Shown here: piece by piece, positions 16,533 through 47,800 of the stretch
Layout: each line of letters starts with the position of its first letter
Numbering within the stretch: position 1 is the stretch's first letter
Assembly: GCF_036711975.1 (NCBI RefSeq)
Contig: NC_091972.1
Location: forward strand, 33,113,001-33,177,000
Length of the DNA stretch: 64,000 nucleotides
Source of the DNA: Onthophagus taurus
Lineage: Eukaryota; Arthropoda; Insecta; Coleoptera; Scarabaeidae
Direction: 5' to 3'
Position numbers and translations under genes: made by a program
Notes under the pieces: model-generated
The model's database searches: none
Seen by the model: the letters and a program-made list of their open reading frames with translations, nothing else
Told to the model about the DNA's origin: nothing

Positions 16533-18443
16533 ATGGCTGATGCTAGTAAGCCTAAGCGATCTTCTGGGTCGCAAAACCGAAAACGGAAAGCGGAAAAAGA
16601 AAAAGAAAGTGCCAAATTAAAAAGATCTCTCCTTGTTTTTCTTCAAAGAGAAGATAAAGAAAATACAGATATTCTAACAGAGACAAGTGAATGCAGTACT
16701 TCTACTACGGAGCAGGGAACAGAAGCAGTACACGGTGAAAATTTAAAGGATGAAGGAACATCAAATACATCGGCATACGTTTCCATTGATTATGACGATC
16801 CTGGTACCTGACCTGATTCTATAAATGATCATTTGCGACAAATGATTGTCTCACGCGGCCCTCAACAAAATATTCCAAGTCAGTTTCCCAAAGATAAAAA
16901 CAACCGTAGGTTTACCACGGTTCACTTCAATAGACAAATGTGTAATGGAGAAAAAATACCAAGGAAATGGTTAGTTTATTCTCCATCAAATAACACAGTT
17001 GTATGTTTTTGCTGCAAGTTATTCAAGAAAAAACAAAAATCTGCATATACCTCACTGTGCCGAGAAGGAAACGACTGGAAAAACATGAGCACCATCCTCT
17101 CTTCCCATGAGCGCAATGTAAATCACATTGACAATTGTCAAGTTTGGCGAGAATTAGAAGTTCGCCTACGTGAAAATAAAACCATTGACGCCATGCACCA
17201 AAAGAAAATTAAACAACAGGAGAGCTATTGGAAACAAATTTTACATCGTTTAATAGCCTTGGTGAGAACTCTGGGTGGACAAAACTTGGCCTTTCGCGGT
17301 TCAAAGGATAAATTATATGACCATAATAACGGCAACTATTTAAAATTTATTGAATATCTTGCATTATTAGATCCAGTCATGAAGGAACATTTGCAAAAAG
17401 TTAAAGATGATAAATTATTTGTTCATTATCTCGGCAAGGATATTTAGAATGAACTTATACAACTGCTATCACGAGCTATAAGAGCAAAAATTATGACGCT
17501 CTTATGGATATTTATAATGACCCAAATCCAGCAGGTTACAGTCTAACAATCATGCGCGTGGAAGCAAAAGGAATTGCAGATGGTATAAGTACATTTAAAT
17601 TTCTAGTGTCACTTATTACGTGGTACAATATTCTTTTCGAAATCAACATTACAAGCAAATTACTGCAAAATAAGAATGCAGGCATATTTGTATGTACGAA
17701 ACAGCTGGAAGTTACAAAGAATTATCTTGTAAGTTGTCAATCAGATGAAAACTTCGAAAAGAATTTATCAGATGCTACACTTCTGGCAAACGAACTCGAT
17801 TGATGCAAATTTTCCTAATTCACCTAGGAAAATTAAAAAACAGTTTGATTATGAAGCCGAAGGTGTATCAATACAAGATCCCAAACAAAACTATAAAATA
17901 TCATTCTATTATATGATTATAGATAATGCAGTAAATGCAATACAGGAAAGATTTAATCAAATGCAAGAGTATTGTGCTTTATTTGGGTTTCTTTACGATA
18001 TTTTTAACTTAAAGGATAAAAACGAAGCTGATATTCTTATGCAATGCAAAAAGTTTGAAAGTGCCTTAACGCATAATTCCTATAAAGACATTGATGGAGA
18101 AGACTTATGCTGGGAACTTCAAAGTGTGTCTCGAAGACTTCTAAAAGTAATGGGCCCATCTGAAGTTCTCCTTTTCATTTTAAGGCATGATCTCCAGAAT
18201 AGCGTTCCTAATATTTACGTCGCGTTAAGGATTTTATTAACTCTTCCTGTTTCTGTAGCAAGTGGAGAGCGCAGTTTTTCTAGATTGAAATTAATTAAAA
18301 CGTACTTGCGCTCAACGATGACTGAAGAACGATTAGTTGGATTAGCGACAATATCAATAGAGCAAGAACTGGCTTACAATCTGGACCTCTGTGAATTAAT
18401 TTCATTATTTGCACAAGAGAAAGCACGCAAAGTAGCATTTTAA
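16533..18443 (+). pseudogene. hAT transposase (ZMYM1-like type), few breaks
   Basis: ATG at 16533 opens a basic, low-complexity N-terminus (KPKRSSGSQNRKRKAEKEKE), then a stop replaces what is probably Trp at 16809-16811 (DDPGT-stop-PDSIND). The TTF-type zinc finger region follows (PRKWLVYSPSNNTVVCFCCK), then the helical part (NYLKFIEYLALLDPVMKEHL), a stop at 17445-17447, and after a deletion of much of the catalytic core YSLTIMRVEAKGIADGISTF (17504-17803). A frameshift near 17803 leads into the intact end (17745-18443) with the hAT dimerisation domain (LPVSVASGERSFSRLKLIKT). The missing core and three frame breaks make it non-functional. Confidence 0.75.
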
Positions 18444-30900: not shown

Positions 30901-33900
30901 TGGTAGTTTTAACACCAGCGTATCCACAAAGACCCAGTGAACAAATAACGGAGGAAAGAACGATTATTATTCCACTTACTCCAAGAAAAATTTTACTTTC
31001 TACCTAAAAAGAAATAATAAAAATGGTATTAATTGTATCTTATAATTACAACAAACTCTATTTAACTTACAAACAGAGTTTTGAATGATCTGAATCTCCC
31101 CAAAGCGATGGTGATGTAAACAAACATAACAGCGTAACTGATAACAATTGTTGATACTTCGGATTGTGATAGTCGTTCAATTTCATCTTCAATTGATCGT
31201 TCAGAATTGAAGGCGATGTCGAAAAATTCTGGTCTTTCGTTTTCATCATAATTTTTCAAAAAGTTTATGAACCTAGAATAAGAATGATTAAAAATGTTTC
31301 TATCAATAAAAAATTAATAATATCACTAAAGATAACGAAGAAAGTGGTGAGAGATGTTAGGTATGATATTAAGGAATGCTGTAGACTACTGTAGAGGACG
31401 TTTCGAAGGACAAGAATAATATTTGAATATATGAAGGACGATGATATTGATATTGATATATAAATACAATGTTGAGGAAGGCCAGGGACGATATTCGAAG
31501 ATGTTGAAAGATATCATGGATAACGTTAGGAGATGATGGAGAAAATGTTTACAGAGATATAAAGGACGATGTTGAGCAACAATGAAAAAGATGTTGAGAG
31601 TGGTCAGAATATGAGAGATTGGAGACAAACTCCACCTGTATGATCGTTAAATGGAGCTAAACAGCCTACCCATCGAAAATATAGTCATTGACTATATTTT
31701 GAAATACATTCATTTACCCATAAATTTTCCTCGAAACAAGACTGATTCAAACATGATGATCCATGCATGAAAAAGGTTGACGAATTGGAGAAACAGGGAA
31801 ATTCGACGATTTACTACTTGGAATATAAATATATTCTACAACAAAGAACAAATGATTATGATAGAGCAGACCAGAACATCGATATTTGCAAGAATTGCAT
31901 TGCAAGAAGCTAAAAAAGGAAAAGAGACAAAGAATGTATGACGATTATGTAATAATATCAAAATAAAAAGACAGTGTAAAAGAATGTAAGAGTGTAAAAG
32001 AAGAATCATTAAAATGCGAACAAAAGGTCAATACTAAATATAATCTTGATATACACAAGAATCATATCAAACCAAATAAATGAATGTGTTCTCATTAGCA
32101 AGGATTCAGATCAGGGAGATTCTGCGCAAACATCATCTTTGTGTATGTAAGCAAACTAAGACGATACAAAATGGGTAACGGGAGGTTAAAATTCTACGCT
32201 CTACAGACGATGCGAAATAACAAAATCTATGATTACTACTTCCAAGACACTGATCAGATGCAAGTTTGTGATCAATGATAAAATCATACACTAGGAAATG
32301 AAATATGAACATCGGGCATCGAAATATCTAGATACGGGTATGATGAGACGGAATTAAGACATCAAGTTGCAAAAGTGTCAAGAACACCGGCGTACCTAAA
32401 TGGCGAAATAAACATATTCGAACTGAATCCAAAGCCCCATCTACAAGGTTGTAATTACACCTACACTATCTTATGCAACAGAAATCCGATTAGAGACTTT
32501 CCAACCAAAAACAATAGAGACTACAGAAATGAAAATAGTGCGTAGAATAGCTGGGAAAACACTGAAGAGCAGATAAGAGAGTTGAACGTCAGATAAACAT
32601 ACAGGATAGGTAACATCAATTACTGGGTATTAATAGAATGAAAAATGGAATGAGCACATTGATCGCATGACAGAGAAACGAATTTTTAGAATAACTAGAG
32701 ACACAAATCACCATCAGGACGAAAAAGTATTGAAATAAACAGCCAATTATGTCTAAATACAGAAGAAAGAGGACATTAGAGACAATATAGAGCAGTGGTG
32801 TCCACTAATTTTTGATCAAGATCGACTTTTTATATAAATGTCTTGTCAAGATCGACCGAAGGGTTTAAAGTAACCTTCCTTTTTTTTTTTGCTCTGAGGC
32901 CCAAATATAGATATTTCAGATTCATGATTTTCTTGGCGATCAACGTTATGGCCACCACTGATTTAGAGCTTATAAATAAAAAATGGTAATAATTGGGTTC
33001 AATCTTTTTATGGATCTAATATTTATGGTCCATTACTAAGGTTTTATGTATAAAAAATATTACCCCATCGCTTTTATTTTATGAGTTATGATTGAGTTAA
33101 TTTTCGAATATCAACAATTTTGATATTTAATCGGTTTAGAGCTTATAAATAAAAAATGGTAATAATTGGGTTCAATCTTGTTATGGATCTAGTCTTTATC
33201 GCCCATTACTAAGGTTTTATGTATAAAAAATATTTCCCCATCGCTTTTAGTTTATGAGTTATGATTGAGTTAATTTTCGAAAATCAACAATGTTGATGTT
33301 TAGTCGATTTAAAGCTAGTAAATAAAGAACGGTTATAATTGGGTTCAATCTTTTTATAGATCTAGTCTTTATGGTCCATTACTAAGGTTTTATGTATAAA
33401 AACTATTTCTCCATCGCTTTTAGTTTTTGTGTTATGATTGACTTAATTTTCGAAAATCAGCAATTTTGACGTTTAATCGGTTTAGAGCTTATAAATAAAA
33501 AATGGTAATAATTGGGTTCAATCTTGTTATGGATCTAGTCTTTATGGCCCATTACTAAGGTTTTATGTATAAAAAGTATTTCCCCATTGCTTTTAGTTTT
33601 TGAGTTATAATTGAGTTCATTTTCGAAAATCAACAATTTTAATGTTTAATCGATTTAGAGCTTATAAATAAAAAATGGTAATAATTGGGTTCAATCTTGT
33701 TATGGATCTAGTCTTTATCGCCCATTACTAAGGTTTTATGTATAAAAAATATTTCCCCATCGCTTTTAGTTCATGAATTATGATTGAGTTAATTTTAGAA
33801 AATCAACAATGTTGATGTTTAGTCGATTTAAAGCTAGTAAATAAAGAACGGTTATAATTGGGTCCAATCTTTTTATAGATCTAGTCTTTATGGTCCATTA

Positions 33901-36900
33901 CTAAGGTTTTATGTATAAAAAGGATTTCTCCATCGCTTTTAGTTTTTGTGTTATGATTGACTTAATTTTCGAAAATCAGCAATTTTGACGTTTAATCGGT
34001 TTAGAGCTTATAAATAAAAAATGGTAATAATTGGGTTCAATCTTGTTATGGATTTAGTCTTTATGGCCCATTACTAAGGTTTTATGTATAAAAAGTATTT
34101 CTCCATCGTTTTTAGTTTTTGAGTTATGATTGAGTTAATTTTCGAAAATCAACAATTTTGACGTTTAATCGGTTTAGAGCTTATAAATAAAAAATGGTAA
34201 TAATTGGGTTCAATCTTGTTATGGATCTAGTCTTTATGGCCCATTACTAAGGTTTTATGTATAAAAAGTATTTCTCCATCGCTTTTAGTTTTTGAGTTAT
34301 GATTGAGTTAATTTTCGAAAATCAACAATTTTGACGTTTAATCGGTTTAGAGCTTATAAATAAAAAATGGTAATAATTGGGTTCAATCTTGTTATGGATC
34401 TAGTCTTTATCGCCCATTACTAAGGTTTTATGTATAAAAAATATTTCTCCATCGCTTTTAGTTTATGAGTTATGATTGAGTTAATTTTCGAAAATGAACA
34501 ATGTTGATGTTTAGTCGATTTAAAGCTACTAAATAGAGAACGGTTATAATTGGGGTCATTCTTTTTATAGATCTAGTCTTTATGGTCCATTACTAAGGGT
34601 TTATGTATAAAAAGGATTTCTAAATCGCTTTTAGTTTTTGTGTTATGATTGACTTAATTTTCGAAAATCAACAATTTTGACGTTTTATCGGTTTAGAGCA
34701 GTGGTGTCCACTAATTTTTGTTGAAATCGACTTTTTATATAAATGTCTTGTCAAGATCGACCGAAGGGTTTAAAGAAACCTTCCTTTTTTTGCTCTGAGG
34801 CCCAGATATAGATATTTTAGATTCATAATTTTCTTGGCGATCGACTTAAAACTGCTTTGCGATCGATGTTATGGACACCACTGATATAGAGGGATGACAT
34901 AGACTATGTTGAGATCAGCTAGGGGCTATGTTCGAAGGTGTAAATGATGTTAGGGGTAATATTGATATATTGATGTCACTAACAATGTTTAATGATATTG
35001 ATAGATAATAAGCAAGTAGAGTTGGAGAAATATGGATAGTTGCCAGAATAGCATTAAAGATTATCAGGGATGATTATATTGTGCGAAGTCAAAGAGACTA
35101 TGTTGAGAAATATCAAGAATGATATATTAGTACGATAATAAGGATTATGTTAGAGATCTTAAGGATAATAATTAGAGAAGAAGATGTTATGTAATCACAT
35201 AGAGTTACTAATTAAAAAACTTTTTACTTACTCAATTTCCCATGCCATGATTTTTTCCAATTTACTTTCATCCAAAGTATTTTCAACTAACATAGTTATA
35301 GCAACTCCTTGAGCATCCCTATAGTCATCTCTTGAAGCACCAGCATATGCTAAACCAGGTTCAATGGGGCCTCCATATGGTGCTAAACAATCCATGTGAT
35401 AAGCGCTCCTGAAATAGTTTTAAAATTTTTAATACTTTTTTATATACTAATTTAAACCTTACTTTGCGCATTTTAACATTGTATCAATATAATCTTCAGA
35501 CGCTTGAAAAATATTTATATCATTTTCAAATAAACCTAAGATAGATTGAACGGTGCAAGCATCAATATTTCGTGGCGGGGAAAATGGTCCCAATAAAGGA
35601 GCATAACAAATACTAACAAAATCAACACCTTCACTTGAACTAACCGTCTATAAAAAATAAAAATGAATTAAAAATGTATGTTAATAATTTATTGGTTATG
35701 TACTTCTTGTAACTGTTGTTGTAATTCAAAAGCTGCAGTTAAAAATGTTTTATTAAAAGCTGGTCCTAAAGTAATTGTTTCGTCCATGAATAGGTATTCC
35801 AACTAAAATTTAAAATTATTTTTTTATTTGTTTAAGCTTTGAGTGGGTACTTACATCTGGAACGTTAACCGCTTTTATAAAAATTTGTTCAGTTCTATAA
35901 AACGGTTTAAAATGTTCATCAAAATAATCTTTTTCAATTCTGCTTCTACTATTAGGGGCTGCCCAAATTTCAACTGGACTCGTAGTAACTTGTAAAGAAA
36001 AGAAACCATAACCCAATCCGATTACAATGTATGGGGTTAAAAGAAGAACCAACATAGCATTATCAGCCATAACTAAAAATAACAATTTAGATAATTAATT
36101 TAAAACGGTGTAAATTATTATTACGAATTCCAAATTTTCTGAAGAGTTTTCCAAGAATTCTATGAACGATGTTAGTTTCTTCTTCATTATCTGCAAAATC
36201 CAAATCTTCTCTGTCGAAGGATTCATTAGTTGCACTTCCATTTGATCGACGCCGAATAAAAATGTATAAAATTATCGTAGTTATGAAAGATAAAGCAAAT
36301 ATGACTATTGCAACGATGAAAGTGTAACCGTTTAGTTTTAAAATAAGAAATCCTTCTGGATGTGCAGGAAAATCCTCTAAAACACAACTTATTGGACAAT
36401 CGATACAACTGCAAGCTAAACCACCTTCCTACAAAAAAAATTAAATTGATATATAATTCAAGATAAAATGTAAAAATATTTATTTAAATAATCTAGTTTC
36501 AATTTGTTAAATATGGAAAAACTTTAACGTTTAACATTAACAATAACTCGACAATGCAATTATCTTATCTAAACTCCTTAGAATGTTATGACCACTTAAC
36601 CAACCGTTTACATTAAGTGTTCGTAGGATTGCGACAAAAAAATGAAAATTATTCCGATATCTAAAATGATAAGCATAAAAAGTATTTGAGTAAAAAAAAA
36701 TAAAAATTAATTTTTTTTACAATTATTAACAAGTAAACATTTAATAAATCGTTTTATGAAATAACACGTGTTACTATAATTTCGTTTACATTTTGCGAAA
36801 AGTACTTGAAGAAATCTTGATAAGGATTGGGTAACTGTAAATTTATTGATGATGATTGAAGTTTACTATAAATAAATAACCTTCGAAAATAACACCGAGA

Positions 36901-44899: not shown

Positions 44900-47800
44900 T
44901 TACAATTTAGAAAGCGCATCAATGAAATTTACAACAAAATGCAAGACAATTGGTATATCAATTGAACGACGGAAGTTTGAACGCACACCTCAATGAATCA
45001 TTTACATCAATTAGATGTAATTGTTCTGACTGAGACTTGGCAGCTGGCGCATGTGAGTGAGATAAGCTTTAATAATTATAAGACATATTATAACAATAGT
45101 AATTTCAATAAAAATGATGGCGTGGTTATTCTCGTGAACGAATTTATTGATCACGAGTCCCACTGCGTTGATGTTAGTGGATTCAAGTTTCTGCGTATTG
45201 AGTTTAACTTGGGTTTGAGTCGGTTTGGTGTCACGGGAATTTATAAATCACCTTCATTTAACCCTAATACCTTTATTGACAACTTAAATTTATACATTAA
45301 ATCCTTCTGCACTAGAGAGCATGAAGTTTTAACTGGAGATATCAATATTGACATCCATCCGGATATGCAGTTGAATCAAATACCTGCTCTTTATTTGGAT
45401 GTGACGGCCGCTGCTGGCTTTGAGCCCTATATCCGTGATTATACTAGAATTTTTAATAATCGTAAAAGTTGTTTGGATCACATCTTTGTTAAAACCTCTC
45501 TCCCGCGGGAAAATTTTCTATCAATAATATCGCATTCAAAAATTACTGACCACTGTCCTGTGTTTTTACAGCTGAATTTCCCTGATAGTTGTGATAGTAA
45601 TCAGAGTATTGAAACTAATAGGTACAGGAACATAATTAATTATAACAAGTTTATTAGCACTATGGGTTCACAAGACTTCACAAATCTTCCTTTGAATATT
45701 GATGATGCAATTAAATTTATATGTGACACAATAAGTAATCACAGGGACGGTGCTTTTTTCAGAAAGAGAATTCCTGCCAAAAATAGGAAACGTAAGCCTT
45801 GGATTACGGACGGAGTGGTAAGATCTATAAATGTTAGGGATACCTTGTATAAACAGTACAGATTAGATGATAGAAACAACCAGATTAAAACAGCATATAA
45901 GCAATATAATACTATGTTAAAAAAAATCATTAACAGTTTGAAGTATGATTATTATACTCGAAAAATTTGTAAACTGAAAAATGATACCAGACGGCTATGG
46001 AATTGTGGCAAGGAATTAACTGGTAAAAATAAATTACGAGACGGTATATCATGCATTAAGATTGATAACGATACTAAGATATATGACGAATTGGGTATTG
46101 CGAGTGAGTTTAATATGTACTTTAGAGACGTTGCGGAAAAATTGTTGAAAAATTTGTATGCATCTGATGATCAGGATCTCAAACGTATTCAACGTTGTGG
46201 GAATTCATTTTTTATAACGCCTACTAATCAGTATGAAATTATGGATATTGTTCAAAAATCAAAGATTAGCAACTCGGCCGGGTGCGATAATATTTCGATG
46301 ATTCTTATTAAGAAGGTTATTCATTTGATTGCATCTCCATTATCCAATTTATTTAATAGATGTTTTGTGTTAGGTTATTTTCCAGAAGCTTTTAAAAAGG
46401 CTGTGGCCGTACCTGTGTTTAAGGGTGGTGATCCTCAATGTGTAAGTAATTATAGACCTATTTCTTTAGTAAATAATTTCGCAAAAATTTTTGAAAAATT
46501 ATTAAAAGTACGTTTGATAAATTTCTTTAATGAAAATAGTATTCTTTCTAAGAATCAATATGGCTTCACTGAGGGTAAATCAACAAGTGATGCCATTGCG
46601 GAACTTACAACAAAAGTTAAAAATAGTTTTGAGAAATCAAGGCCTTGCCTAGCTGTTTTTTTGGATCTAGCTAAAGCTTTTGACACGGTTGACCACAGTT
46701 TTTTGTTGCGTAAGCTCGATATTTATGGGGTGAGAGGTACACCTTTGAAATTAATGTGGGACTATCTGCACGAGAGATCTCAATATGTGAGGATTGGTCA
46801 AGGTCTCAGCTGTTCGGTATCGATGAATGTCGGAGTGCCACAGGGAACAGTTTTGGGTCCGCTTTTGTTTTTAATCTATATAAATGACTTGCTTTCATTA
46901 ACACTCAATGGAGACTTAATCTCTTATGCGGATGATACCGTTCTGTTTTTGGAAGGCCGTTCTTGGGCAGATGTTGAAGATAAAGCTATAGCAGATTTGA
47001 GATTAATAAATAACTGGCTAAATAGCAGTAAACTTATTTTAAATGATAGCAAGTCATCTTTTATGAGATTTACCATCAGAAAGGATACCACTAGTAGCTT
47101 TTCTAGCCTTCCAATTCATGAAAATGATTGTTGTGTGGTAGATTGCAATTGTAAAAGGATTACATCTGTGCAAGTTGCTACTTATTTGGGTGTATTAATT
47201 GACAATCATTTGAGATGGAATGCTCATATTGCAAGGATGGTTGACAAGATTCGGCGTAGTACTTACATGTTCAAAAGATTACGTCATGTATGCGATTTCA
47301 AAACTATTAAGATATTTTATTTTGGAATTATACAATCAATCCTGCAATATGGCATATTGGCATGGGGCTCTGCAGCTGATTCTTACCTTCAGAAATTAAT
47401 TACGTCTCAAAAAGGTGTTATAAAAATAATGATGCATAGGCCCCGTACTTTCCCATCTGCGTTGTTGTTTGCTGAGTGTGACTTATTTACTATTAAACAG
47501 TTATACACCTTAGCAATTATGAATAACATTCTAAAATCACCGGACCGATTGGCGACTGTCTCACATGGTTACTCTACTCGGATTGCATCCCAGAATCGTG
47601 CTGTTATACCGCCCGTAAATAAGACTGTAGGTCAAAGACATTACTCTTACCATTCCATTAAAATATATAATAAGTTTAGGGAATACCTAACAGCACAGAA
47701 CCTTACGTTGGTGAAATCTAGGTGGAAATACTTTTCAAAAAGATGGGTGAAATCACTTAATGATGGCGTGATAGATGGACTTTTTTCAATTATGGTTTAG

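Follow-up and report, generated by a model that had tools for sequence, protein, structure and literature searches.

Positions 32785-34891 of a stretch of 64,000 nucleotides from Onthophagus taurus (contig NC_091972.1 of assembly GCF_036711975.1; the whole stretch is here called the window, and its contig C7) hold a satellite array enclosed by two miniature inverted-repeat transposable elements (MITEs), as outlined in Table 1. Direct reading of the letters gives the order atatagag, MITE1, satellite, MITE2, atatagag, with both MITEs in the same orientation and CAGTG...CACTG ends on each. The array was found independently by Tandem Repeats Finder (TRF) at 32962-34699, with a period of 173, 10.0 copies and 90% matches. 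It begins with atttagag and ends with gtttagag, so the cut phase is the same on both sides. A preliminary description of the window, made from its letters, had reported the twin MITEs, the ten 173-bp units and the atatagag outside both ends, all of which was confirmed by reading, and the array also by TRF. It had suggested that the block moved as one unit of the hAT type with satellite cargo, and it had also allowed for a MITE inserting at a tttagag site where the array then grew.

Other MITE-satellite-MITE copies with differing unit numbers were sought in the 290.8 Mb genome and were found. A search with the whole block gave copies on many contigs (35 of 424 candidates were scored). Patterns for the start and the end of the MITE gave 222 and 199 matches (listed up to the first 100 for each), and their reversed controls gave 0. 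A pattern for the left inner junction, running from the end of MITE1 to atttagagcttata, occurs at 77 places, 54 of them exact, and one for the right inner junction, running from tttagag to the start of MITE2, occurs at 75, with 38 exact; the reversed control was again 0 for each. Up to 3 mismatches were allowed, and a few of these places are therefore not true block junctions, namely C1:38134484 (L049) and C8:5386572, where a MITE lies inside satellite (L145); a single array contributes two starts, C3:6327843 and C3:6328176. Pairing left and right places by position gave 42 blocks with arrays of roughly 3-46 units; in 33 of them the spacing comes to an integral number of 173-bp units, to within 0.10 unit. 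The smallest block, L050, has about 2 units, giving an overall range of about 2-46. Among the copies read first, most have the shorter MITE type at the left edge and the longer one at the right edge, a layout from which damaged copies such as L002 depart. The end repeats mostly measure 130-207 bp across blocks, and the blocks end in short terminal inverted repeats starting with CAG (CAGTGGTGTCC / GGACACCACTG).

An 8-bp duplication belonging to each copy was also sought. Among the blocks marked by the 77 left-hand and 75 right-hand places, 53 were read at both ends. The outer ends are intact in 35 of the 53, and 33 of these 35 carry the duplication, which is perfect in 27 (the window included) and has one mismatch in 6. 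These figures include C2:24498776, C7:17910473 and C7:19639509, scored from a separate reading as perfect, perfect and one mismatch; a strict automated count gives 25 perfect and 5 one-mismatch duplications among the 53 blocks. In 7 further blocks one outer end is damaged and the 8-mer still adjoins the damaged end. At C1:8863102 that end has 3 extra bases beside the 8-mer, and the 8-mers of C5:11422118 and C1:41077360 were matched by eye. That the duplication in the window is not a product of chance is borne out by the recurrence of the structure across the genome and by a mispaired control, in which the ends of different blocks matched perfectly in 4/2704 pairings and with one mismatch in 70/2704 (2/1260 and 44/1260 in a smaller control). 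The control is conservative, because the target sites share the form nnnTAnnn. With C8:17967175 and C8:18425106, which have common flanks, counted as one, no two of the 38 loci have the same 8-mer; T occupies base 4 in 38/38 and A occupies base 5 in 37/38. The likeness of outer and inner 8-mers noted in the preliminary description holds in the window, where atatagag is 1 base from atttagag, but not in general, as other outer 8-mers differ widely and resemble atttagag mainly in the nnnTAnnn form. Since the outer 8-mers are diverse and almost all of nnnTAnnn form, target preference explains the likeness of the window 8-mer to the inner attTAgag better than local array growth does. L050 has the perfect duplication ttctatac, yet the inner left end of its MITE2 is missing, a loss that may postdate insertion.

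The search for an empty site, also proposed earlier, was run on paralogous sites in the same assembly. The flanks of the 38 loci were joined with one 8-mer each, and 40 of 3133 candidates were scored. Three blocks lie within dispersed repeats whose other copies run unbroken across the join, with a single 8-mer and neither MITE nor satellite (Table 1); no empty sites for the remaining 35 loci were seen among the 40 of 3133 candidates scored. The window locus offers no such comparison, because the homology of its left-flank repeat stops at least 7 bp ahead of the left 8-mer and a genome search with its right flank returned the self match only. Movement of the block as one unit with satellite cargo, as first suggested, is thus supported by recurring copies, by their own duplications and by paralogous empty sites. 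The assignment to the hAT type agrees with the ends and the target site. The block shows the 8-bp duplication, the nnnTAnnn target and the CAG-starting terminal inverted repeats by which Buster hAT elements are recognized, as well as the linked elements in direct orientation, the use of outer ends and the duplication around the whole by which a hAT macrotransposon is recognized. Judged by its sequence, the block is very probably a non-autonomous hAT-type macrotransposon, Buster-like by its target site, that moves en bloc with the satellite as cargo.

Table 1 Features of the block in the window, blocks with one damaged outer end, and blocks with paralogous empty sites
Feature	Position	Strand	Detail
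Left 8-bp target-site duplication	32785..32792	.	atatagag; direct reading; same as 34884-34891
MITE1, left copy	32793..32960	+	subfamily B, 168 bp, cagtggtgtcc...ggccaccactg (from sequence); without TCAAAACTGCTTTGCGATCGAC block; inner end ggccaccactg
Outer left terminal inverted repeat	32793..32803	+	cagtggtgtcc
Inner left 8-mer, MITE1/array junction	32961..32968	+	atttagag; start of array
Satellite array	32961..34698	+	1738 bp = 10 x 173 + 8; direct reading and TRF
Variant-type satellite units	within 32961..34698	+	units 3, 6 and 10
Inner right 8-mer, array/MITE2 junction	34691..34698	+	gtttagag; end of array
MITE2, right copy	34699..34883	+	subfamily B, 185 bp, cagtggtgtcc...ggacaccactg (from sequence); terminal inverted repeats 11 bp, perfect
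Outer right terminal inverted repeat	34873..34883	+	ggacaccactg
Right 8-bp target-site duplication	34884..34891	.	atatagag; direct reading
Left flank, end of older dispersed repeat	32585..32777	+	43 other matches listed, 73-84% identical
Damaged-end blocks with 8-mer	C11:15109817, C3:4915639, C1:22579112, C8:18425106, C1:8863102, C5:11422118, C1:41077360
Block with empty-site paralogs	C1:22579112		31 places, 91-97%
Block with empty-site paralogs	C2:19316522		5 places, 91-94%
Block with empty-site paralogs	C1:8863102		4 places, 98-99%

In the proposed mechanism, a transposase supplied in trans would take the two outermost ends, the left of MITE1 and the right of MITE2, and the whole MITE1-satellite-MITE2 block would move and insert at a new nnnTAnnn site, with 8 bp duplicated. 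The unit number would shift by unequal exchange or slippage within the array, and such changes in length could take place after or during movement. The founding composite most likely goes back to the insertion of a MITE into a satellite monomer, at attTAgag; amplification, unequal exchange or a second same-phase insertion may then have provided the downstream MITE at the same phase. The length of n x 173 + 8 is compatible with a single insertion later copied by amplification, and also with two insertions that hit the same phase.

If whole blocks move, left and right markers should be inherited together and end monomers of different loci should be alike, and both were found. The MITEs fall into two subfamilies, A and B. 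The outer-left markers agree with the inner-right markers in 45/45 MITE1 copies and with the inner-left markers in 27/27 parsed blocks, and the inner-end marker of MITE1 agrees with the inner-start marker of MITE2 in 40/42 paired blocks (22 A, 18 B). The nearest other-locus relative of a last monomer is also a last monomer in 12/22 cases (binomial p about 1e-8), and that of a first monomer is also a first monomer in 5/16 (p about 0.001). A FastTree tree, of which no support values were read, covered 9 solo-like copies together with 44 MITEs from the left and 29 from the right side of blocks, after 1 left and 3 right copies no longer than 120 bp had been removed. In this tree the left MITEs cluster together and the right MITEs cluster apart, irrespective of locus, and the solos are basal except for L026 and L023. 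L026 is an orphan right end, as its left flank is satellite-like. L023 joins the left of a subfamily-A MITE1 to the right of a MITE2 within the perfect duplication ttatagat, and is probably a block whose array was lost by recombination between its MITEs. With these two set aside, 6 of 7 solos carry CGGCTTCGCG-type bases where composites carry CTGCTTTGCG, and the seventh lacks that sequence block. Several solos have alike outer 8-mers, with 8/8 bases in L047 and L052, 7/8 in L045, L046 and L058, and 6/8 in L063.

Features of single MITE ends were also compared. Base 5 is probably an important position, and at base 5 of the MITE2 inner left end subfamily A has A, not G (15/15 A-type blocks), which may weaken that end. 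Loss of the TCAAAAC...GATCGAC block was considered as a change that disables the inner end of MITE1 and was dropped, because the outer right ends of L048 and L064 lack the block too and the solo L047, which is also without it, has a perfect duplication.

Other histories could give a similar arrangement. Solo MITEs with 8-bp duplications of their own may have come first, with circular DNA of MITE and satellite recombining homologously into each. Such capture of circles would reproduce both the outer duplications and the fixed inner junctions, it is compatible with empty paralogous sites, and solo MITEs with 7 or 8 of 8 outer bases alike do exist (L045, L046, L047, L052, L058 and L023). However, such capture would leave outer and inner parts with little linkage, against which stand the three marker comparisons (45/45, 27/27 and 40/42). 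Residents of the kind required also seem scarce, with L023 the one case among 9 solo-like loci, since most solos carry CGGCTTCGCG-type bases and not CTGCTTTGCG, and we consider this history improbable. A still less probable alternative is that, once a MITE had inserted at a tttagag site, unequal exchange enlarged the array independently at every locus. The outer 8-mer of the window, one base from atttagag, the variation of unit numbers between loci and the single MITE inside satellite with ATTTAGAG on both sides (L145) all speak for growth in place, but the 38 different outer 8-mers are mostly unlike tttagag and enclose the same satellite in the same phase, and the paralogous sites of three loci are without MITE and satellite. 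Local growth after insertion at tttagag, which the preliminary description had left as a second possibility, is not needed in the window, because dozens of places share one inner junction but have different outer 8-mers.

The direct terminal repeats, mostly 130-207 bp, and the target duplication around the whole also recall a small element of the long terminal repeat (LTR) type, a terminal-repeat retrotransposon in miniature (TRIM), in which the end repeats would be LTRs and the satellite the interior; the solo chimera L023 would then resemble a solo LTR. In LTR elements and TRIMs the left and right repeats of one copy are most alike, the ends are TG...CA and the duplication is 4-6 bp. Here, the duplication is 8 bp of nnnTAnnn form, the ends are CAGTG...CACTG, and terminal inverted repeats bound each of the end units. 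Moreover, left repeats resemble the left repeats of other loci and not their own right repeat, the opposite of what reverse transcription gives, and no left and right repeats that are identical within a locus and differ between loci were seen in the FastTree tree. A TRIM was therefore rejected and retains next to no probability. Helitrons and Helentrons have no target duplication and no terminal inverted repeats, and were rejected because both are present.

Some observations weigh against the macrotransposon. Subfamily markers are mixed in 2/42 blocks (C1:22579112 and C2:3644103), which points to some exchange between blocks or arrays. Two of the 35 intact-end blocks, C3:4292116 (3/8) and C2:26395589 (6/8), are without a good duplication, and 11 of the 53 blocks could not be assessed because an end was missing or not fetched. 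Arrays with no MITE at either edge occur at C3:21190657-21195119 (L065, L066) and C10:9851364-9854099 (L080, L081), so not every array lies inside a composite today. Lastly, no intact transposase with these ends was found. Elements with the same ends do contain coding fragments (L156, for example, has both ends, the perfect duplication AACTATAG and three fragments), which may be Buster/GTF2IRD2-like hAT transposase; they gave no hAT match in Pfam or PDB sequences, and these searches lend the assignment no support.

Domains for hAT dimerisation are common in the genome (150 listed of 1076 candidates), and several lie in frames of >600 aa; none of the 150 listed of 1076 candidates falls in the same-end relics. 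The window itself contains frames from a further hAT transposase gene at 16812-18443 (+), with a C-terminal hAT dimerisation domain (PF05699, E 4.7e-11) and, upstream of it, a weak DUF4371 match below the cut-off.

The satellite outside composites, and the change of array length, bear on how far the macrotransposon accounts for the family. At C10:9844764-9848083 (L069, L070) an array is edged only by a scrap of MITE2. L145 consists of satellite, a subfamily-A MITE1 (2389-2553) and satellite again, and its sequence contains no outer MITEs. A satellite monomer with a MITE inserted in it would be expected to look like this, although L145 could be a later product, as its MITE is of a derived type. 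Monomer distances are 0.069 from free to inner monomers, 0.070 between inner monomers of different loci and 0.054 within a locus. The 18 'free' monomers of this comparison come only from L073, L074, L077, L078, L079 and L145, some of whose arrays have a MITE elsewhere, and the clean MITE-free edges (L065, L066, L080, L081) yielded no complete monomer. C8:17967175 and C8:18425106 (L125-L128) have both flanks and the 8-mer gtataaaa in common, so that the locus itself was duplicated; their arrays have about 3 and about 6 units, which points to a change of array length after insertion. It is possible, and we put it forward tentatively as somewhat doubtful, that the scatter of the 173-bp satellite is owed chiefly to the macrotransposon, with arrays seeded by transposition, altered in length later and left MITE-free as their ends decayed.

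Two more observations concern satellite loci. C5:7836500-7841500 (L067, L068) holds a sequence distantly related to the satellite, with about 64-81% identity piece by piece and no MITE within the two edge stretches read. The free array at C10:9850800-9854700 (L080, L081) lies beside repeated flanking sequence, with the motif AATATTAATGAAGTTATGGTCAACTTCCGG on both sides.

Several known systems resemble the block in part, and the comparisons here extend to the accessible portions of the cited reports. In the Ac/Ds macrotransposons of maize, nearby hAT elements in direct orientation use their outermost ends, so that the intervening DNA moves with an 8-bp duplication (PMC9910405), and copies can reinsert and multiply (PMC9910405, citing Huang and Dooner 2008; Wang et al. 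2022). The block described here would likewise be mobilised as a unit by its outermost ends with an 8-bp duplication. Unlike the Ac/Ds cases, which are products of alternative transposition in maize lines, two MITEs here frame a satellite, and one founding structure is present at dozens of sites in an animal genome. MITE-borne satellites are known from miDNA4 and Xstir of Xenopus (PMC12628747, PMC9659126) and from the pearl elements of bivalves (PMC5139131), which are also non-autonomous elements with inverted repeats and a tandem array of variable length. For miDNA4, capture of an existing repeat has been proposed, and Xstir forms composite structures of MITE and tandem array whose repeats derive from the MITE interior (PMC12628747, PMC9659126). 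In miDNA4 and pearl the array lies inside one element, whereas here a complete MITE with both inverted repeats stands on each side; in contrast to Xstir, the satellite is unrelated to the MITE. Helitron- or Helentron-borne arrays of Crassostrea gigas (PMC7492417) are a further case of a mobile element spreading short satellite-like arrays, but the present block has inverted repeats and an 8-bp target duplication. The Drosophila element Mar, a hAT MITE of the Buster group, has the same CAG-type inverted repeats and an nnnTAnnn 8-bp target consensus, and is described as a simple MITE, no satellite cargo being mentioned in the accessible part of the report (PMC3517528). Dispersed satellite-like repeats related to DNA transposons occur in Tribolium, where the accessible part of the report does not describe a MITE-satellite-MITE structure (PMC5844308).

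No MITE-satellite-MITE macrotransposon in print was found in the accessible portions of the literature searched, which left most subscription papers outside its scope. Thus MITE-borne satellites and the Ac macrotransposons of maize are known, and the multicopy MITE-satellite-MITE element looks like a new form. If the scatter of the satellite is indeed owed chiefly to the macrotransposon, a composite of two MITEs, itself a selfish element, can spread and found a satellite family. The en bloc spread itself, by which a short array has very probably been carried as a unit to dozens of genomic sites, is a concrete route for satellite dispersal, and it gives hAT-type macrotransposition a natural example outside maize that is present in many copies. 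The arrival of satellites on chromosome arms is usually argued from scattered and eroded cases; here dozens keep target duplications, and subfamily markers can tell transposition from in-place growth and recombination. The set of loci can also be used to follow how array length changes after insertion.

Individual blocks show a variety of rearrangements. In L051, at about 138-537, about 400 bp of other DNA interrupts the MITE2 of one block. In L049 a MITE is succeeded by tandemly duplicated flanking DNA with a second partial MITE, and the 8-mer ATTTACAG frames the whole. In L030, at about 1675-1697, the right end of the block reads GTTATGG TGT CCATAAC, a small palindrome that replaces the normal end; this hairpin-like damage lies directly before the matching 8-mer TTATAGAG. 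In L092 (C1:41081847-41082108) MITE2 is reduced to its first ~20 bases, followed immediately by CACTAGAT, the 8-mer of the left side of the block. Elsewhere in the window, a stop-free open frame of 939 codons at 44981-47800 (+) belongs to a long non-LTR retrotransposon and has a reverse transcriptase domain, together with an endonuclease domain match just under the Pfam cut-off.

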